This document shows positions 24,679-30,171 of a DNA stretch of 30,373 bases, piece by piece. The DNA is from a virus. The notes under the pieces were generated by a model. That model searched no databases and was not told the origin of the DNA. It was given only the letters and a program-made list of their open reading frames with translations. A program made the translations under genes and the position numbers. Where the stretch lies: positions 1 through 30,373 of the IMG/VR virus record IMGVR_UViG_3300042691_008829, one strand, 5' to 3'. The stretch's first letter is position 1, and every line of letters starts with the position of its first letter.

Positions 24679-24847
24679 TTGGGCAGTTGATCGTATTCAT
24701 ACTCTCTGTGAAAAAAACATTGAAGATGCCCATGCGATTCAATCTGAATTTAGTGAATGGTTGAATCCAGAAATCTCAGATCATGATATTTTCTCATTAG
24801 AGTTCATAGGAGAGGGAGATGACACTAGACCTTCACAATTTTTTTAA
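24641..24847 (+). CDS. Small unknown protein, 68 aa
   Basis: A 68-residue acidic protein overlapping its neighbours on both sides (38 and 29 bases). The N-terminus is a helix with LEKTLRQTHDWAVDRIHTLC, and the C-terminus carries EFIGEGDDTRPSQFF. The ribosome-binding site AGGAGAG of the next gene lies in its 3' end. No family is recognised. Confidence 0.68.
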   Translation: METLEKTLRQTHDWAVDRIHTLCEKNIEDAHAIQSEFSEWLNPEISDHDIFSLEFIGEGDDTRPSQFF

Positions 24848-25490
24848 ATTTTACGACGAAAACAATTTAAATCATGTTGCAGCAGTTCAATGGTTGGAGG
24901 ATAACCTACCTGCTCAATTCCTTGACGATTCGGAAACCGATTGGATTGGAATTTTCAGAACTAAACCACCTACACCAGCAGTTCTGAACGTTCCATATTT
25001 CAATCAAGTAGACAATTACCGAGATGCACATAGAACTTGTAACAGTTCATCATGTGCTATGTGTCTTGCGTTCCTCAAGCCAGGAAGCATTAAAGGTGAT
25101 GACGAATATGTCAAGAAAGTATTTGCGATTGGTGACACTACTGACCATGCTGTACAGACGAAAGTTTTGGCAGGTTATGGAGTTAAGTCACACTTTAGTT
25201 ACAATCTTTCTTTTGCTGATATTGATAAGAGTCTTGATGCTGGGAAACCTGTTGTTATTGGTATCCTTCATAGGGGTTCTCTTTCTGCACCTACTGGTGG
25301 GCACATGTGTGTTGTGATTGGTAAGACTCCAGACGGTAAGGGATATTATGTTAATGATCCATATGGTTCATTGAACGATAACTATACTGGTCCTGTAACT
25401 AACGGTAAGAAAACAATTTATACGAAAGCAGTTCTTAAGCACCGTTGGTGTCCAGGAGGCAACGATGGATGGGGCAGAATCTTCGACTAG
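24819..25490 (+). CDS. C39-like cysteine peptidase, probable lysis enzyme
   Basis: A 223-residue protein. The N-terminal module (1-47, DLHNFFKFYDENN and AVQWLEDNLP) is shared with the lysozyme downstream. The C-terminal domain is a papain/C39-type peptidase: VPYFNQVDN (58-66), cysteine in RTCNSSSCAM (C74 or C79), PTGGHMCVVIG with H162, and YVNDPYG with D180. Such domains cleave peptide cross-links of peptidoglycan in phage lysins. AGGAG precedes the start. Between them, this protein and the lysozyme could cut both peptide and sugar bonds. Which cysteine is catalytic is not certain from sequence; the TC position fits the C39 pattern. Confidence 0.82.
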   Translation: MTLDLHNFFKFYDENNLNHVAAVQWLEDNLPAQFLDDSETDWIGIFRTKPPTPAVLNVPYFNQVDNYRDAHRTCNSSSCAMCLAFLKPGSIKGDDEYVKKVFAIGDTTDHAVQTKVLAGYGVKSHFSYNLSFADIDKSLDAGKPVVIGILHRGSLSAPTGGHMCVVIGKTPDGKGYYVNDPYGSLNDNYTGPVTNGKKTIYTKAVLKHRWCPGGNDGWGRIFD

Positions 25491-25611
25491 ATTTAAGGCA
25501 AAGATGCTTAAGGTCATTAAAGATCTTACAAATAGTGGAAGGCATCTAGAGGCAAACGAACTTTATCAACGTTATTTCGGAGACAACAATGGCAAGAATC
25601 GATCTACATAA
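25465..25611 (+). CDS. Microprotein bridging two lysins, 48 aa
   Basis: A 48-residue ORF overlapping the end of the peptidase gene and the start of the lysozyme gene. A perfect AGGAGG (25454-25459) lies five bases before ATG 25465, the strongest Shine-Dalgarno in this cluster. The product is helical and basic (STRFKAKMLKVIKDL, HLEANELYQRYFGDN). It could be a regulator or antiholin-like factor, but no family is recognised. Confidence 0.68.
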   Translation: MDGAESSTRFKAKMLKVIKDLTNSGRHLEANELYQRYFGDNNGKNRST

Positions 25612-26260
25612 CTTCTTCAAGTTTTATGACGAGAAGAACCCCAATCACGTTAAAGCAGTGCAGTGGTTGGAAGATAACCTCCCAGTCAAGTATCTAGAAG
25701 ATAATATTGATTGGGCGGAAATTTATCGTGGAAAAAAGACTAGTGCTGCACCAGTATCCACACCCACTGCTGCAGCTACTGTGACAGGTGGTGATGATAT
25801 GCCTATGATGGGATTAAAACTCATCAAAGAGTTTGAAGGATGTCATTTAAAGGCATATCCAGATCCTCTCACTGGTGGACTTCCAATCACTATTGGTTGG
25901 GGTTCAACTCGTAAGAAAGATGGATCGGCATTTAAACTTGGTGATACTTTAACTCAGCAAGAAGCAGATGAACTTCTTATTGAACAGTGTAAGAAAGAGT
26001 TCCTTCCTGCCTTGCGTAAAATCCCTCATTGGAGTGAAATGTCTGATGGAAAAAGAGGCGCTCTGCTCAGCTTTGCTTATAATCTTGGTGCCGGTTTTTA
26101 CGGTGGTGATAACTTTAATACTATTACTAAACGCTTGAAGAATAAAGAGTGGGACTTAGTTCCCGATGCGCTTTATCTCTACCGCAATCCTGGTTCAAAT
26201 GTAGAAGCAGGCCTGGCACGTAGAAGAAAAGCAGAAGGTGAATCTTGGAAAAAAGGTTAA
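25589..26260 (+). CDS. GH24 lysozyme with shared N-terminal module
   Basis: A 223-residue endolysin. Residues 1-47 (IDLHNFFKFYDEKNPNH and AVQWLEDNLP) repeat the N-terminal module of the upstream peptidase, then an Ala/Thr/Pro linker (50-70) leads to a T4-lysozyme-type muramidase domain. The catalytic Glu-8x-Asp-type pattern is readable: E83 (FEGCHLKAY), D92, T101 (PITIGWGST), matching T4 E11/D20/T26 spacing. It hydrolyses the MurNAc-GlcNAc bond. The late-domain NLGAGFYGG and GLARRRKAE are also lysozyme-typical. No signal peptide is seen, so a holin is needed; a candidate follows directly. Confidence 0.92.
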   Translation: MARIDLHNFFKFYDEKNPNHVKAVQWLEDNLPVKYLEDNIDWAEIYRGKKTSAAPVSTPTAAATVTGGDDMPMMGLKLIKEFEGCHLKAYPDPLTGGLPITIGWGSTRKKDGSAFKLGDTLTQQEADELLIEQCKKEFLPALRKIPHWSEMSDGKRGALLSFAYNLGAGFYGGDNFNTITKRLKNKEWDLVPDALYLYRNPGSNVEAGLARRRKAEGESWKKG

Positions 26261-26277
26261 CTTCACACTAAGGACAA

Positions 26278-26619
26278 ATGGAAACAACTAAAAAAGAAAA
26301 ATGTATGGGACAAGTTATTCGTATTGCCATTTTGAGTTGGTCTGCTGCTCTTCTAACCGCTAGCTATGCTGGTATGCTATCCAAAATGGATCCTACTTTT
26401 ATTGCTACGGTGTTCACTGCATCTGCTGCTACCTTTGGTATTAATACAATGAAGAAAGGTGGTGAAGATGATGAGAAGAAAGAAGAACCTCGTAGAGAAG
26501 AAGTTGTAGAGGCACCACCAGAACCACCAGCACCTGAAGAAGTTGCTGCTGCAGAACAATCTCTTGAAGCAAGAGTTGAAGTTCTGGAAGGTCAGGTTCA
26601 ACCACGCACAGGAGCTTGA
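26278..26619 (+). CDS. Two-TM protein, holin candidate
   Basis: A 113-residue protein with two hydrophobic segments, about 12-33 (VIRIAILSWSAALLTASYAG) and 40-58 (TFIATVFTASAATFGINT), separated by a tight SKMDP turn. A long Lys/Glu/Pro-rich cytoplasmic-type tail ends in a short coiled-coil-like helix. Small size, two TMs, a charged tail and position directly after the lysozyme are holin hallmarks. No specific holin family is recognised. TAAGGA precedes the ATG. The stop overlaps the next start (TGATG). Confidence 0.72.
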   Translation: METTKKEKCMGQVIRIAILSWSAALLTASYAGMLSKMDPTFIATVFTASAATFGINTMKKGGEDDEKKEEPRREEVVEAPPEPPAPEEVAAAEQSLEARVEVLEGQVQPRTGA

Positions 26620-26741: not shown

Positions 26742-26942
26742 ATGCCAAGAGAATGGAACACTCCCATACGGGAACCCTGGAATCCTGTAATTAAAAAGTG
26801 TCTGGATGCCGTCGATGAACACACTCGACAGCATCTTAAGACAGGTGATGAGTGGCATCTTTCTCAAGCAGAAATCTTAAGAAAGTATGTAAAAGACCTA
26901 AAAGTATGGATACATAAAGAAGAGGGATGGTGGAATGAATGA
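26742..26942 (+). CDS. Small unknown protein, 66 aa
   Basis: A 66-residue protein, Trp-rich for its size (five Trp), reading REWNTPIREPWNPVIKKC then DAVDEHTRQHL and ending KVWIHKEEGWWNE. It is soluble and helical by composition. ATGAGGTATT places a GAGG six bases before the ATG. It overlaps the next ORF by 8 bases. No family is recognised. Confidence 0.68.
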   Translation: MPREWNTPIREPWNPVIKKCLDAVDEHTRQHLKTGDEWHLSQAEILRKYVKDLKVWIHKEEGWWNE

Positions 26943-27096
26943 GTTTCCTTTGGGAGTGTTCACCATCCTTTTTTGTGGACTCACATTTACGGCATATATT
27001 ATTTACTACATATTGAAGTTAGCACACGAGGAAATGAAAGATGGCAAAATGGATTCACAAGAACGGTCATTCACGACCAGACAAGAGAACGATTAA
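26935..27096 (+). CDS. Small single-pass membrane protein, 53 aa
   Basis: A 53-residue ORF with one hydrophobic segment (about 5-27, PLGVFTILFCGLTFTAYIIY) and a charged C-terminus (HEEMKDGKMDSQERS). GGGATGG lies near its start. Position in the lysis cluster suggests a holin accessory or spanin-like membrane part, but no lipobox or second subunit is evident. Another ORF is nested in a different frame within its 3' part. Confidence 0.6.
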   Translation: MNEFPLGVFTILFCGLTFTAYIIYYILKLAHEEMKDGKMDSQERSFTTRQEND

Positions 27097-27118
27097 AAAG
27101 GGTGGAAAGAAAAAATGA
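27041..27118 (+). CDS. Nested basic microprotein, 25 aa
   Basis: A 25-residue ORF nested out of frame in the small membrane protein gene, product MAKWIHKNGHSRPDK then RTIKKGGKKK. A GAGG lies at 27028-27031, and its TGA overlaps the next ATG (ATGA). Its start (MAK) and end (GGKKK) resemble the 38-aa microprotein upstream. Short length keeps confidence moderate. Confidence 0.45.
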   Translation: MAKWIHKNGHSRPDKRTIKKGGKKK

Positions 27119-27321
27119 AACATTTAGCAATCATTTTGTCGGCAACAAGTCTGGCAATTAGTGGGGCACTTTGTTATGGTGCTTATGTGACTTACAAGAA
27201 AGCAGAAGCAATTCTCAACAACCCAGAGCAGTTTGTTGGTAAGGTTGTAGAGAATCAAGTTAATAAGGCATTTGAAAAATTACCTATTCCTAAAAATATT
27301 CCAGGAATTAAATTATTTTGA
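27115..27321 (+). CDS. Small membrane-anchored or exported protein, 68 aa
   Basis: A 68-residue protein with an N-terminal hydrophobic segment (3-25, HLAIILSATSLAISGALCYG) acting as signal or anchor, then a soluble helix (KKAEAILNNPEQFVGKVVENQV) and a Pro/Lys tail. Cys20 near the end of the hydrophobic core is in ALCYG, only a weak lipobox resemblance. It is the last plus-strand gene of the lysis cluster and meets the minus-strand operon tail to tail, overlapping by nine bases. No terminator is visible between them. Confidence 0.7.
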   Translation: MKHLAIILSATSLAISGALCYGAYVTYKKAEAILNNPEQFVGKVVENQVNKAFEKLPIPKNIPGIKLF

Positions 27322-27999
27322 ATGAAACTCTTTGTACTGCCTTTGTTTATCTTTCTTCTGTTCTTTCTTAAGTAATTTATTGACTTTTTTTAGAGACTGA
27401 CTTTTCTCAAACGCAAAGTATATTTGAAGTTCATATGGGGTAAGATCTCTATTCAGGAGTTTCTTACCCCTTACAAATATCTGTTCTACAATTGGTTTGA
27501 ATTTTTTTACCATCCATTCCACCAGAGATTTGCCAACAAGAGCCGCAGCAACAGAAGCAGTAGCAGTGGTGCCAGCAAGAATAACTTGCTCTTTAGGTGG
27601 GACTGGAACTTCTCCGACGATTGGTACTTCAATGACAGGAACTCCTAAATTTTGGGTTGTTTCTGTATTGGTTTCTTTGATTATCTTGTCTTGTATTGAT
27701 TCTTGAGGAACTTGAATCTGTGGAATAATGGGTTTACTATCAGGTAATCCTCTGGTCTTTTCTTCTTGTTCTTGTTGTTGTTTTTGTTGTTCTGCTCTCA
27801 CCGCAGCATCAAACTCTTCTTGAGTTGGAACATCAATGATTGGATATTTCAATGTTGGGTTAGGTACATTAATAATTGGTAGAGCAAGTCCGTGTGATAC
27901 TGAGCGTTCTGTTCCTCTTGTAATAGGAGGTTCTATCGTAGGAATAATTGGTGGTGAGTCAATTTTTACGACCGATGACCTTATTTGAGGTATTTCCAT
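27313..27999 (-). CDS. Proline-rich single-TM protein with basic tail
   Basis: A 228-residue protein. The N-terminal 135 residues repeat a (P)(I/V)I-x-VP motif (LPIINVP, YPIIDVP, PIIPQIQVP, VPVIEVPIV) with a Gln/Glu-rich helix (66-82) between. A transmembrane helix follows (about 138-158, QVILAGTTATASVAAALVG), then a strongly Lys-rich C-terminus. Positive-inside reasoning puts the proline-rich part in the periplasm or outside and the basic tail in the cytoplasm. It is the last gene of the minus-strand operon and overlaps the preceding gene by 41 bases. It could anchor the three secreted proteins to the membrane. No family is recognised. Confidence 0.75.
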   Translation of the reverse strand: MEIPQIRSSVVKIDSPPIIPTIEPPITRGTERSVSHGLALPIINVPNPTLKYPIIDVPTQEEFDAAVRAEQQKQQQEQEEKTRGLPDSKPIIPQIQVPQESIQDKIIKETNTETTQNLGVPVIEVPIVGEVPVPPKEQVILAGTTATASVAAALVGKSLVEWMVKKFKPIVEQIFVRGKKLLNRDLTPYELQIYFAFEKSQSLKKVNKLLKKEQKKDKQRQYKEFHSK

Positions 28000-28555
28000 T
28001 GATTACATCCTGTACATTTGGATACTTAACAACTACATCAGCACATATTTTTGCATAAGGACTCTGTGGATGAAATGATATTCCGTTCTTAATTGCTTCA
28101 CCACACTTCAACAGACGAACTAGTTCAAAATCAAGTCGTGCCTTATCTGCCTCTGCCTGCTGCCTGGTTATTTCAGTTCTGACTCTTGCCTTACAAAGTT
28201 CCTGAAACGACCCATCAAGAGGTATAGAGAATCCTGCAGAGAGTCCTCCATTAAATGAATTGGTTTGATATGTTGTTGGATCAGTACTACCTGCAAGACT
28301 ATTGTATCCAAAGGTCTGGAGATTCAGAGTTGGACCTTGGCAAGAAACACCACTACCATAAGTATTCACAGAAAAAGGACCCTGTAGCACCTGTACCGCC
28401 TGGTTGGTTACATTACCAGTTGCTGATGCTGAGGGTCCCGCAATATTCGTGTTGGAGGGTGCTTCAGCAAATACAGGAGACCCTAAACCGATTATTGTGT
28501 GAAGACCGATAATGAATTTGTGGTAGACTCTTCTACCGTTTTGCGATCTATCCAT
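27959..28555 (-). CDS. Secreted four-cysteine protein, minus-strand operon
   Basis: A 198-residue protein with a Sec signal peptide: basic N-region (RSQNGRRVYHK), hydrophobic core (FIIGLHTIIGLG), and cleavage after PVFA (residue 30). The mature part has a Gly/Asn/Gln/Thr-rich beta-type region (GPFSVNTYGSGVSCQG and NLQTFGYNSLAGS), then a long helix (119-150, ELCKARVRTEITRQQAEADK), with C72, C121, C151 and C171 available for disulfides. It overlaps the upstream gene by 64 bases. I judge the first ATG right because it completes the signal peptide. Function is unknown; it is envelope-directed. Confidence 0.72.
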   Translation of the reverse strand: MDRSQNGRRVYHKFIIGLHTIIGLGSPVFAEAPSNTNIAGPSASATGNVTNQAVQVLQGPFSVNTYGSGVSCQGPTLNLQTFGYNSLAGSTDPTTYQTNSFNGGLSAGFSIPLDGSFQELCKARVRTEITRQQAEADKARLDFELVRLLKCGEAIKNGISFHPQSPYAKICADVVVKYPNVQDVINGNTSNKVIGRKN

Positions 28556-28854
28556 GTTTCTTTCGCAATTCCAGGAGTCAAGTGAGTTTCACTAAACTGG
28601 AACGGAGCACCTTGCGTTTGAATTGTGTAGTTCGCACCTGGACCAGGACGGTCAGGAATATTAATATTGGTGCCAGTGACAGTATAAGATGTCCCAGTTG
28701 TATATTCTATTTGTTTGATGACTTCAACCACCTCAGTGCGAGTTTTGGTCTCAGAAGTAATTGTGCCACTTGTAAAATTAGGAGTGACAGGTGCTGCAAA
28801 ACAAGGAGATATAAGTCCCGTTGCAAGCAGCAAAACGGGAGTTATGGATCTCAC
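28492..28854 (-). CDS. Secreted beta-rich protein, paralogue B
   Basis: A 120-residue protein with a clean signal peptide (MRSITPVLLLATGLISPCFA, cleavage after residue 20). The mature part shares an ordered set of motifs with the gene upstream: TSYTVTGTNINIP, then NYTIQTQGAPFQFSET, with Thr/Ser/Gly-rich strands. It starts in an ATGA overlap with that gene, so the two are translated together. The composition suits a small beta-sandwich or fibre subunit. No family is recognised. Confidence 0.73.
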   Translation of the reverse strand: MRSITPVLLLATGLISPCFAAPVTPNFTSGTITSETKTRTEVVEVIKQIEYTTGTSYTVTGTNINIPDRPGPGANYTIQTQGAPFQFSETHLTPGIAKETWIDRKTVEESTTNSLSVFTQ

Positions 28855-29312
28855 TTGAATACGCTTAATTCAACGGTTCTTTGTGCAGTACCAGTGCTTC
28901 CAGGACCACCAGCAGTGATGGTAGGAACACCAGTTGCGCTTAGAGTACCAGCAAGAGATCCTTTATCTCCACCTAACTGGGTAGTAGAGTTACTATAAAG
29001 GTTGGGAGCAGCAATTGTTCCAGAAGCTGCCGACTGAGAGGTGACAACTGTATCAGCAGTAATTGAGGATTCACTGAAAGAAAATGCCGAACCATTCGTG
29101 TTGATTGCGTAAGAACCTGCGGAACCAACTCCACCAAGAGTTGTTACATTGATATTTGTTCCAGAGACGGCATATTGTCCACCGACTCTAGTTGATTGTA
29201 CAGCAGCACCCTGAACGTTTAATTGTACGGAATCAACAATTTTTGATGTAATTTCAGCAGCACTTGCAGGAGTGATAAAGAATAACGAAAAGGCTAGTAG
29301 AAGTCTTTTCAT
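28851..29312 (-). CDS. Secreted beta-rich protein, paralogue A (operon head)
   Basis: A 153-residue protein with signal peptide MKRLLLAFSLFFITPASA (cleavage after 18). The mature part is Ser/Thr/Gly/Ala-rich with GQYAVSGTNINVTT, then SYAINTNGSAFSFSES, matching paralogue B motif by motif, and a Gly/Thr-rich C-terminus. A CATAAATA late motif lies 25 bases upstream of its start on the minus strand, so it heads a four-gene late operon reading away from the rest. Likely exported to the periplasm or cell surface of an infected cell. Confidence 0.75.
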   Translation of the reverse strand: MKRLLLAFSLFFITPASAAEITSKIVDSVQLNVQGAAVQSTRVGGQYAVSGTNINVTTLGGVGSAGSYAINTNGSAFSFSESSITADTVVTSQSAASGTIAAPNLYSNSTTQLGGDKGSLAGTLSATGVPTITAGGPGSTGTAQRTVELSVFK

Positions 29313-29523: not shown

Positions 29524-30171
29524 GTGCAAAATTTCTTTACAGTAGCCATGCCTCTTTTGGCAACGGTTACAACCAATATGGCAACACTGCCATTTCAGAA
29601 TTATAAAATGCAGGGTCCTCCCCCACCTCCTTATTCAATTATTAAGGAGTTTGATTTAAAAACTGAAAAGACAGCGACCAAAGAGGTTGCTCCCGAAAAA
29701 CCTAAAGAGATAAGGTTAATTTGTAAAGGGTGTAATGAAAATGAAAATGCTACCCTGGCATACTTCCAGGATCGTGGTATTAAAGACAGAAACGCCCTTG
29801 CTACCATTATGGGCAATATTAGACAGGAATCCACATTCGTGCCTAATATCTGCGAAGGTGGTAGCAGAACCAGTTGGAGTAACTGCGGACGTGGTTACGG
29901 ACTGATTCAATGGACATCTGCCGATCGTTATTATGGATTGGGTGATTTTGCTAAGAAGTTTGGTGGTTCTCCATCAACACTTCAAACGCAACTTCGTTAT
30001 CTAACAAATGAAGTTCAGTGGCAACGAATTGAAGACCGTATGAAGACTCCTGGAAAGTCTATCAATCGTTACATGGACTATGCGTATAGTTGGATTGGTT
30101 GGGGGCATCATGGTGCTCGCACGTCGTATGCTCATGAGTATGCTTCCAAACTGATCACGGTAGAAGTTTAA
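29524..30171 (+). CDS. Phage tail lysozyme-domain protein
   Basis: A 215-residue protein ending in a phage tail lysozyme-type domain (about 72-213): ALATIMGNIRQESTF, then CGRGYGLIQWTSADRY, and a distal YAYSWIGWGHHGARTSYAHE. The Glu in IRQES is the likely catalytic acid by family analogy. The N-terminus (MPLLATVTTNMATLPFQ region) is hydrophobic and is followed by a PPPPPYS stretch, so it may be exported or membrane-associated. The only starts in frame are GTG 29524 and ATG 29548, neither with a good ribosome-binding site; I use GTG as the longer form. It would be the third wall-cutting enzyme in the window. Confidence 0.8.
   Translation: MQNFFTVAMPLLATVTTNMATLPFQNYKMQGPPPPPYSIIKEFDLKTEKTATKEVAPEKPKEIRLICKGCNENENATLAYFQDRGIKDRNALATIMGNIRQESTFVPNICEGGSRTSWSNCGRGYGLIQWTSADRYYGLGDFAKKFGGSPSTLQTQLRYLTNEVQWQRIEDRMKTPGKSINRYMDYAYSWIGWGHHGARTSYAHEYASKLITVEV

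Follow-up and report, generated by a model that had tools for sequence, protein, structure and literature searches.

A conserved gene module of picocyanophages with a putative role in opening the outer membrane at lysis

Why should a cyanophage keep a late operon whose products appear to be sent to the host envelope? The question was raised by a virus record of 30,373 bases, referred to here in its full length as the window, which carries genes for a DNA polymerase, a DnaB-like helicase, a primase, a ribonucleotide reductase and lysozymes. Its closest annotated relative at the DNA level is Synechococcus phage DSL-LC02, a member of the Kyanoviridae from a Chinese lake. A first-pass annotation had described four overlapping minus-strand open reading frames, here called B, C, D and A, and their positions proved exact (Table 1). 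The overlap is 4 nt between B and C and 41 nt between D and A; C and D overlap by 64 nt, in different frames.

The same annotation matched the four proteins to no known family and regarded a late operon of secreted proteins as a rarity. All four do match PHROGs families, and C also matches DUF6322, although these PHROGs families are themselves of unknown function. The supposed rarity was refuted. Searches with tblastn found D in 460 phage records and B in 395, all from named cyanophages or marine or uncultured viruses, which rules out a rare or orphan operon; the genes belong to a conserved picocyanophage module that spans two phage families. The families concerned have been catalogued as hypothetical under PHROGs 564, 650, 848, 1755 and 9426, DUF6322 and T4-GC 234-237 (Sullivan et al., 2010), an identity based either on HMM matches obtained directly or on the cluster notes in GenBank. 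The PHROGs, Pfam and T4-GC catalogues gave us no function for them, nor did we find there any connection of one family with another, with DUF6450 or with lysis.

Table 1. Features of the window in order of position, numbered from its first base.
Feature	Position	Strand	Description
Second endolysin-family protein	24819-25490	+	phrog_3617 / phrog_10051
Phage lysozyme (endolysin)	25589-26260	+	PF00959
DUF6450	26278-26619	+	PF20048; small membrane protein resembling a holin, 17 nt after the endolysin gene
Small protein 1	26935-27096	+	single hydrophobic segment; matches phrog_25130/814
Small protein 2	27115-27321	+	single hydrophobic segment; no PHROGs match
A	27313-27999	-	228 aa; proline-rich, one TM helix, basic C-terminus; phrog_9426
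D	27959-28555	-	198 aa; predicted Sec-exported, four conserved Cys, long helix; phrog_848/1755
C	28492-28854	-	120 aa, GTG start; predicted Sec-exported beta-hairpin; phrog_650, Pfam DUF6322
B	28851-29312	-	153 aa; predicted Sec-exported, beta-rich, paralogue of C; phrog_564
Late promoter motif	29344-29337	-	T4-type, CATAAATA; heads the operon, upstream of B
Phage_lysozyme2-domain protein	29524-30171	+	PF18013, phrog_512; far side of the operon

Promoter and predicted products of the operon

The ATAAATA core of the promoter motif CATAAATA begins 31 nt 5' of the ATG of B and is the only minus-strand copy across the window. The late motif had been noticed at first reading, and its position turned out to be conserved: among 79 distinct B homologues, 58 have [CA]TAAATA no more than 80 nt upstream, compared with 2% of background windows, and its spacing to the B start is nearly always 30-32 nt. 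A scan of upstream regions never found it ahead of C or D homologues. A late motif of the same type and spacing precedes DUF6450 in 51/102 cases and the endolysin in 37/153. The conserved position of the motif before all three genes therefore indicates that B heads a late operon and that the lysis genes have a promoter of the same type.

The Sec signals proposed at first reading for three of the proteins were borne out by prediction. B, C and D have hydrophobic N-termini followed by AXA-type sites, with predicted cleavage at ...TPASA/AE, ...PCFA/AP and ...SPVFA/EA respectively. Comparison of the B and C profiles (hhalign probability 97.8) identifies the two proteins as paralogues; C occurs in both T4-like and T7-like cyanophages. 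Many GenBank records (e.g. KU686209, NC_021072 and KJ019112) label B as 'OMP1 protein'; we looked for a basis for this product name and found none.

The AlphaFold2 model of C (pLDDT 80, pTM 0.34) consists of two antiparallel strands of 24-25 residues each, residues 29-52 and 95-119. Comparison with the PDB gave weak matches (best Foldseek E 0.0075; VIA Z ≤ 4.5), mostly or only to long hairpin stems. The proteins that resemble the model contribute such stems to oligomeric pores or rings, and phage collar proteins are among the weak matches. Similarity of this kind is common to any long beta-hairpin. The modelled fold would agree with an oligomeric beta structure but supports nothing further. 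A profile search of solved structures with B, C and D gave no useful match, the single match having an E value of 0.7.

Four cysteines are conserved in D, as is a helix some 40 residues long; the structure model of D (pLDDT 56) was too poor for a structure search. The 5' end of D is overprinted on the 3' end of C, and D lies in the -1 frame relative to C in 148 of 153 loci. In the freshwater type the two genes share 64 nt, compared with 67-112 nt in most T7-likes and 166-202 nt in most marine T4-likes, and in a few loci they are merely adjacent. An artefact, a signal created by a wrong start codon inside the overlap, was ruled out by the homologues that do not overlap. In six loci (L101, L103, L105, L106, L108 and L110) the C/D overlap is absent or 4 nt and D begins with a compact signal peptide, which in L103 is the short classical sequence MKCLRTILALSVFVLPAYA/EG. 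We are unsure of the exact D start codon in the marine T4-likes with 166-202 nt of overlap. Several annotated D starts omit the signal sequence, namely those of P-SSP7 gp45 (L052), P-SSM2 PSSM2_240 (L001) and Syn30 CPRG_00142 (L007), because the overlap with C contains the true 5' end or lies close to it. The C start of Syn30 (CPRG_00141) is likewise annotated too short.

A fits its initial description as a proline-rich protein with a membrane segment: it has one hydrophobic helix and the motifs PIINVP, PIIDVP and PVIEVP. The N-terminal part, which has no signal sequence, contains 15-20% proline and has a median length of 76-184 residues depending on the group. The TM helix lies towards the C-terminus, and in all 186 of 186 sequences there is more positive charge after the helix than before it. 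By the positive-inside rule, the basic segment after the helix predicts an N-out/C-in topology; this charge argument is a rule of thumb and gives a prediction only. The A protein of the T7-likes (P-SSP7 gp42) is a direct match to phrog_9426. The T4-GC234 protein, which is encoded convergently with D in marine T4-likes, matches the A profile over the TM region (hhalign probability 90.6, E 1.3e-6) and has the same design of a proline-rich part, a single TM helix and a basic tail.

Conservation beside DUF6450 and endolysin genes

A survey of synteny in cyanophages and hosts had been suggested as a check, and it revealed a module of C, D, A and DUF6450 that is conserved in T4-likes and T7-likes. 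Iterated HMMs were used to scan 80 T4-like D loci, 80 endolysin loci and 80 T7-like D loci from IMG/VR. Because these loci are close relatives of each other, the counts describe conservation and not independent events. The order A-DUF6450-C-D is found on one strand in 64 of the 80 T7-like loci, and DUF6450-C-D in 9 more; the neighbours overlap, with median gaps of -46, -4 and -112 nt. In P-SSP7 the four genes are gp42-45 (C being gp44 and D gp45), with the tail-fibre genes on one side and the small terminase gene on the other. In T7 the holin is gene 17.5 and the spanins are genes 18.5 and 18.7. We take the slot of P-SSP7 gp42-45 to be the place of these T7 holin and spanin genes.

In freshwater T4-likes DUF6450 lies on the same strand as the endolysin in 64/64 loci, with a median gap of 19 nt, and the antisense genes A-D-C-B adjoin DUF6450, as they do in the window; A is not present in all loci. 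In marine T4-likes B-C-D corresponds to Syn9 gp167-166-165 (T4-GC 237-236-235), antisense between hsp20 and regA. Here DUF6450 (Syn9 gp161) is usually about 2 kb from D, with the exception of P-SSM2, where the distance is 6 kb. Among 26 reference phages, 19 have both D and DUF6450 and 7 have neither, S-CREM2 being scored as lacking DUF6450 since its match falls below the curated cut-off.

DUF6450 has the traits of a holin, being a small protein with 1-3 TM helices encoded next to an endolysin. By its size (∼ 60-150 residues), its charged tails, its hydrophobic segments (no more than two) and, in freshwater T4-likes, its position immediately behind the endolysin gene, it resembles class II holins, and we regard it as the presumed holin. 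By hydropathy, two hydrophobic segments are seen in 71/77 T7-like members and one in most T4-like members, in which the second TM segment is weak, unlike in class II holins.

The surroundings of the operon contain further candidates. The two endolysin-family genes of the window are in tandem, and the order of two endolysin genes followed by DUF6450 is kept in many freshwater relatives. The two small proteins encoded between DUF6450 and the operon are possibly further parts of the lysis region. The Phage_lysozyme2-domain gene adjoins B in some contigs, and its membership of the B-C-D-A module is uncertain.

The gene order also bears on the possibility that the four proteins belong to the virion, as horn, fibre or baseplate additions that are joined after export. 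The genes do follow the tail-fibre genes in T7-likes, and the collar proteins among the weak fold matches of C point the same way. However, cleavable Sec signals, as predicted here, clash with the assembly of virions in the cytoplasm, and in T4-likes the genes sit among regA and hsp20 or the lysis genes, outside the tail cluster. We therefore consider a virion role improbable. The virion proteomes examined, those of S-CREM2 and S-SZBM1, are uninformative on D, which both phages lack. Of the three roles initially suggested, envelope remodelling, help with release and formation of an appendage, the neighbourhood, the late promoter and the co-occurrence with endolysin and DUF6450 favour release, whereas neither gene position nor predicted export lends support to an appendage or tail part.

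Copies in cyanobacterial genomes

Three freshwater Synechococcaceae genome bins carry B-C-D, on contigs CAMBZX010000080 (L135), JAPLIB010000153 (L136) and CANCJV010000005 (L137). The first two also carry A, in convergent orientation; the third contig ends directly after D. On these contigs the module lies beside host housekeeping genes, with NAD kinase, CYTH-like and bestrophin-like genes present, and in 3/3 the contig breaks just past the module. These are the only three of 400 sampled Cyanobiaceae genomes with the full module outside phage-like contigs, a frequency that makes a simple host auxiliary gene unlikely. In a tree of D, rooted on distant host D-like proteins, the host-bin copies form one clade inside the diversity of T4-like phages, with weak support (84/58). 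The nesting favours capture of the module from phage by the host, which is thereby suggested and not proven.

A few percent of Cyanobiaceae encode a distant family of host D-like proteins, found alongside small secreted proteins. Five such proteins (L161-L165, from genomes G248, G205, G106, G223 and G107) share a FYGFGPGINCPTPT motif; several of them sit among small signal-peptide proteins, some of which are B/C-like in style. The members of this set that were tested had no Pfam match. In G107 an apparent transposase gene (L165, 8570-9604) splits the host D-like gene.

These cyanobacterial relatives raise the idea that the phages borrowed host envelope machinery, a set of small secreted beta proteins with a D-like partner, and use it to sustain or remodel the envelope. 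That some Cyanobiaceae chromosomes encode distant D-like proteins close to small secreted ones is consistent with such an origin, as is the completeness of B-C-D in the three freshwater bins, two of them with A. Against it, three host genomes contrast with 460 phage records, and the host copies fall within phage diversity in the D tree, albeit with the weak support given above, as expected of capture by the host. A borrowed origin thus appears about as improbable as a virion role.

Retention of a copy in three host bins would also fit a use to the living cell, for example if the exported products cover the outer membrane of the host or change it, making it exclude other phages or resist premature lysis. 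The predicted Sec export of three proteins, two of them beta-rich paralogues, agrees with a location at the cell surface. Yet the promoter is late and not early, the linkage to DUF6450 and endolysin is tight in two phage families, and A has no obvious surface role. Surface modification is unlikely on this balance, if somewhat less so than the other two alternatives. Together, neighbourhood, shared late promoter and co-occurrence indicate a role in lysis.

Comparison with spanins and a proposed lysis function

A search for spanins across 677 phages found none in about 20 picocyanophages (Kongari et al., 2018; PMC6139136). The 'spanin-less' phages include P-SSP7, P-HM1, P-HM2, P-RSM4, P-SSM2, P-SSM4, P-SSM7, Syn1, Syn9, Syn19, Syn33, S-ShM2, S-SM1, S-SM2, S-SSM5, S-SSM7, S-RSM4, S-PM2, Syn5, P60 and S-CBS4, among others. 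The authors suggested a fragile outer membrane and left other membrane topologies possible, including the one predicted here for A. We found no work on cyanophage spanins in the literature beyond this study. When 18 'spanin-less' phages were tested with HMMs, 14 had D and DUF6450, and both were absent from S-PM2, Syn5, P60 and S-CBS4. In addition, tblastn detected D in S-SM2 and P-SSM7 and B in P-HM1.

The module has much in common with two-component spanins such as lambda Rz/Rz1, T7 gp18.5/18.7 and T4 PseT.3/PseT.2: small late genes at the lysis cassette, an out-of-frame overlapping pair, a proline-rich region, conserved cysteines and a partner anchored in the inner membrane with a periplasmic domain. 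C/D is a pair of the embedded, overlapped or adjacent kind, and the linkage to holin and endolysin is present, DUF6450 itself being the presumed holin. The differences lie in the membrane anchors. Instead of an outer-membrane lipoprotein, the module has two or three secreted, non-lipidated proteins: a lipobox-like motif was found in 0/65 B, 0/147 C and 5/158 D homologues, so that B, C and D do not qualify as o-spanins, and neither the window nor the P-SSP7 region has a plausible lipoprotein gene near the module. The TM helix is N-terminal in the spanin membrane partner and C-terminal in A, for which the prediction is also the reverse of the N-in/C-out i-spanin. A shares its C-terminal TM helix and periplasmic domain with the unimolecular spanin T1 gp11; however, it has no N-terminal lipobox and probably needs partners. 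No spanin family in PHROGs or Pfam was matched by the module. Because the lipobox is missing and A is predicted to be N-out/C-in, canonical spanins are ruled out.

We suggest instead that B-C-D-A is probably a lipoprotein-free module that breaks the outer membrane at lysis, a proposal that rests on sequence and gene context. It would form the envelope-facing half of a lysis module, with DUF6450 and endolysin as the inner-membrane half. Late in infection, Sec would export C, its paralogue B, and D, which would remain ready either in the periplasm or at the outer membrane. A would be retained in the inner membrane, its basic tail on the inner side, and its proline-rich N-terminal part would project as a rod into the periplasm. 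After the holin fires and the endolysin removes the peptidoglycan, the A rod could meet the C/B/D assembly, and together they would open the outer membrane, a task that spanins perform with other components. C and B may oligomerize through their beta-hairpins into a ring or barrel.

Confidence in these details is lower than in the general role. Export of B, C and D and the topology of A are predictions from sequence, and from these we infer the oligomerization of C/B, the contact of A with C/D and the opening of the outer membrane. In the broader picture, one lipoprotein-free lysis system would be shared among viruses of Synechococcus and Prochlorococcus, by most of the T4-like and many of the T7-like ones, with A as N-out rod, C (often with B) as oligomer and D as cysteine-containing adaptor; this picture is tentative and falls somewhat short of an even chance. 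Since no lipobox is present anywhere in the module, attachment to the outer membrane is not accounted for. It would be unusual for a long proline-rich domain that lacks a signal peptide to be translocated as an N-tail. Moreover, S-PM2, Syn5, P60 and S-CBS4 presumably lyse similar hosts without D and DUF6450.

If the proposal is correct, the module replaces spanins and answers the question of how 'spanin-less' cyanophages open the outer membrane. Picocyanobacteria dominate photosynthesis in the ocean, and their carbon is freed by phage lysis, the last step of which lacks an explanation. The module supplies named candidate genes for this step: Syn9 gp161 and gp164-167, P-SSP7 gp42-45, T4-GC 234-237 and DUF6450. 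Carried beside the lysis genes by most sequenced ocean viruses of Synechococcus and Prochlorococcus, it may be their missing outer-membrane tool.
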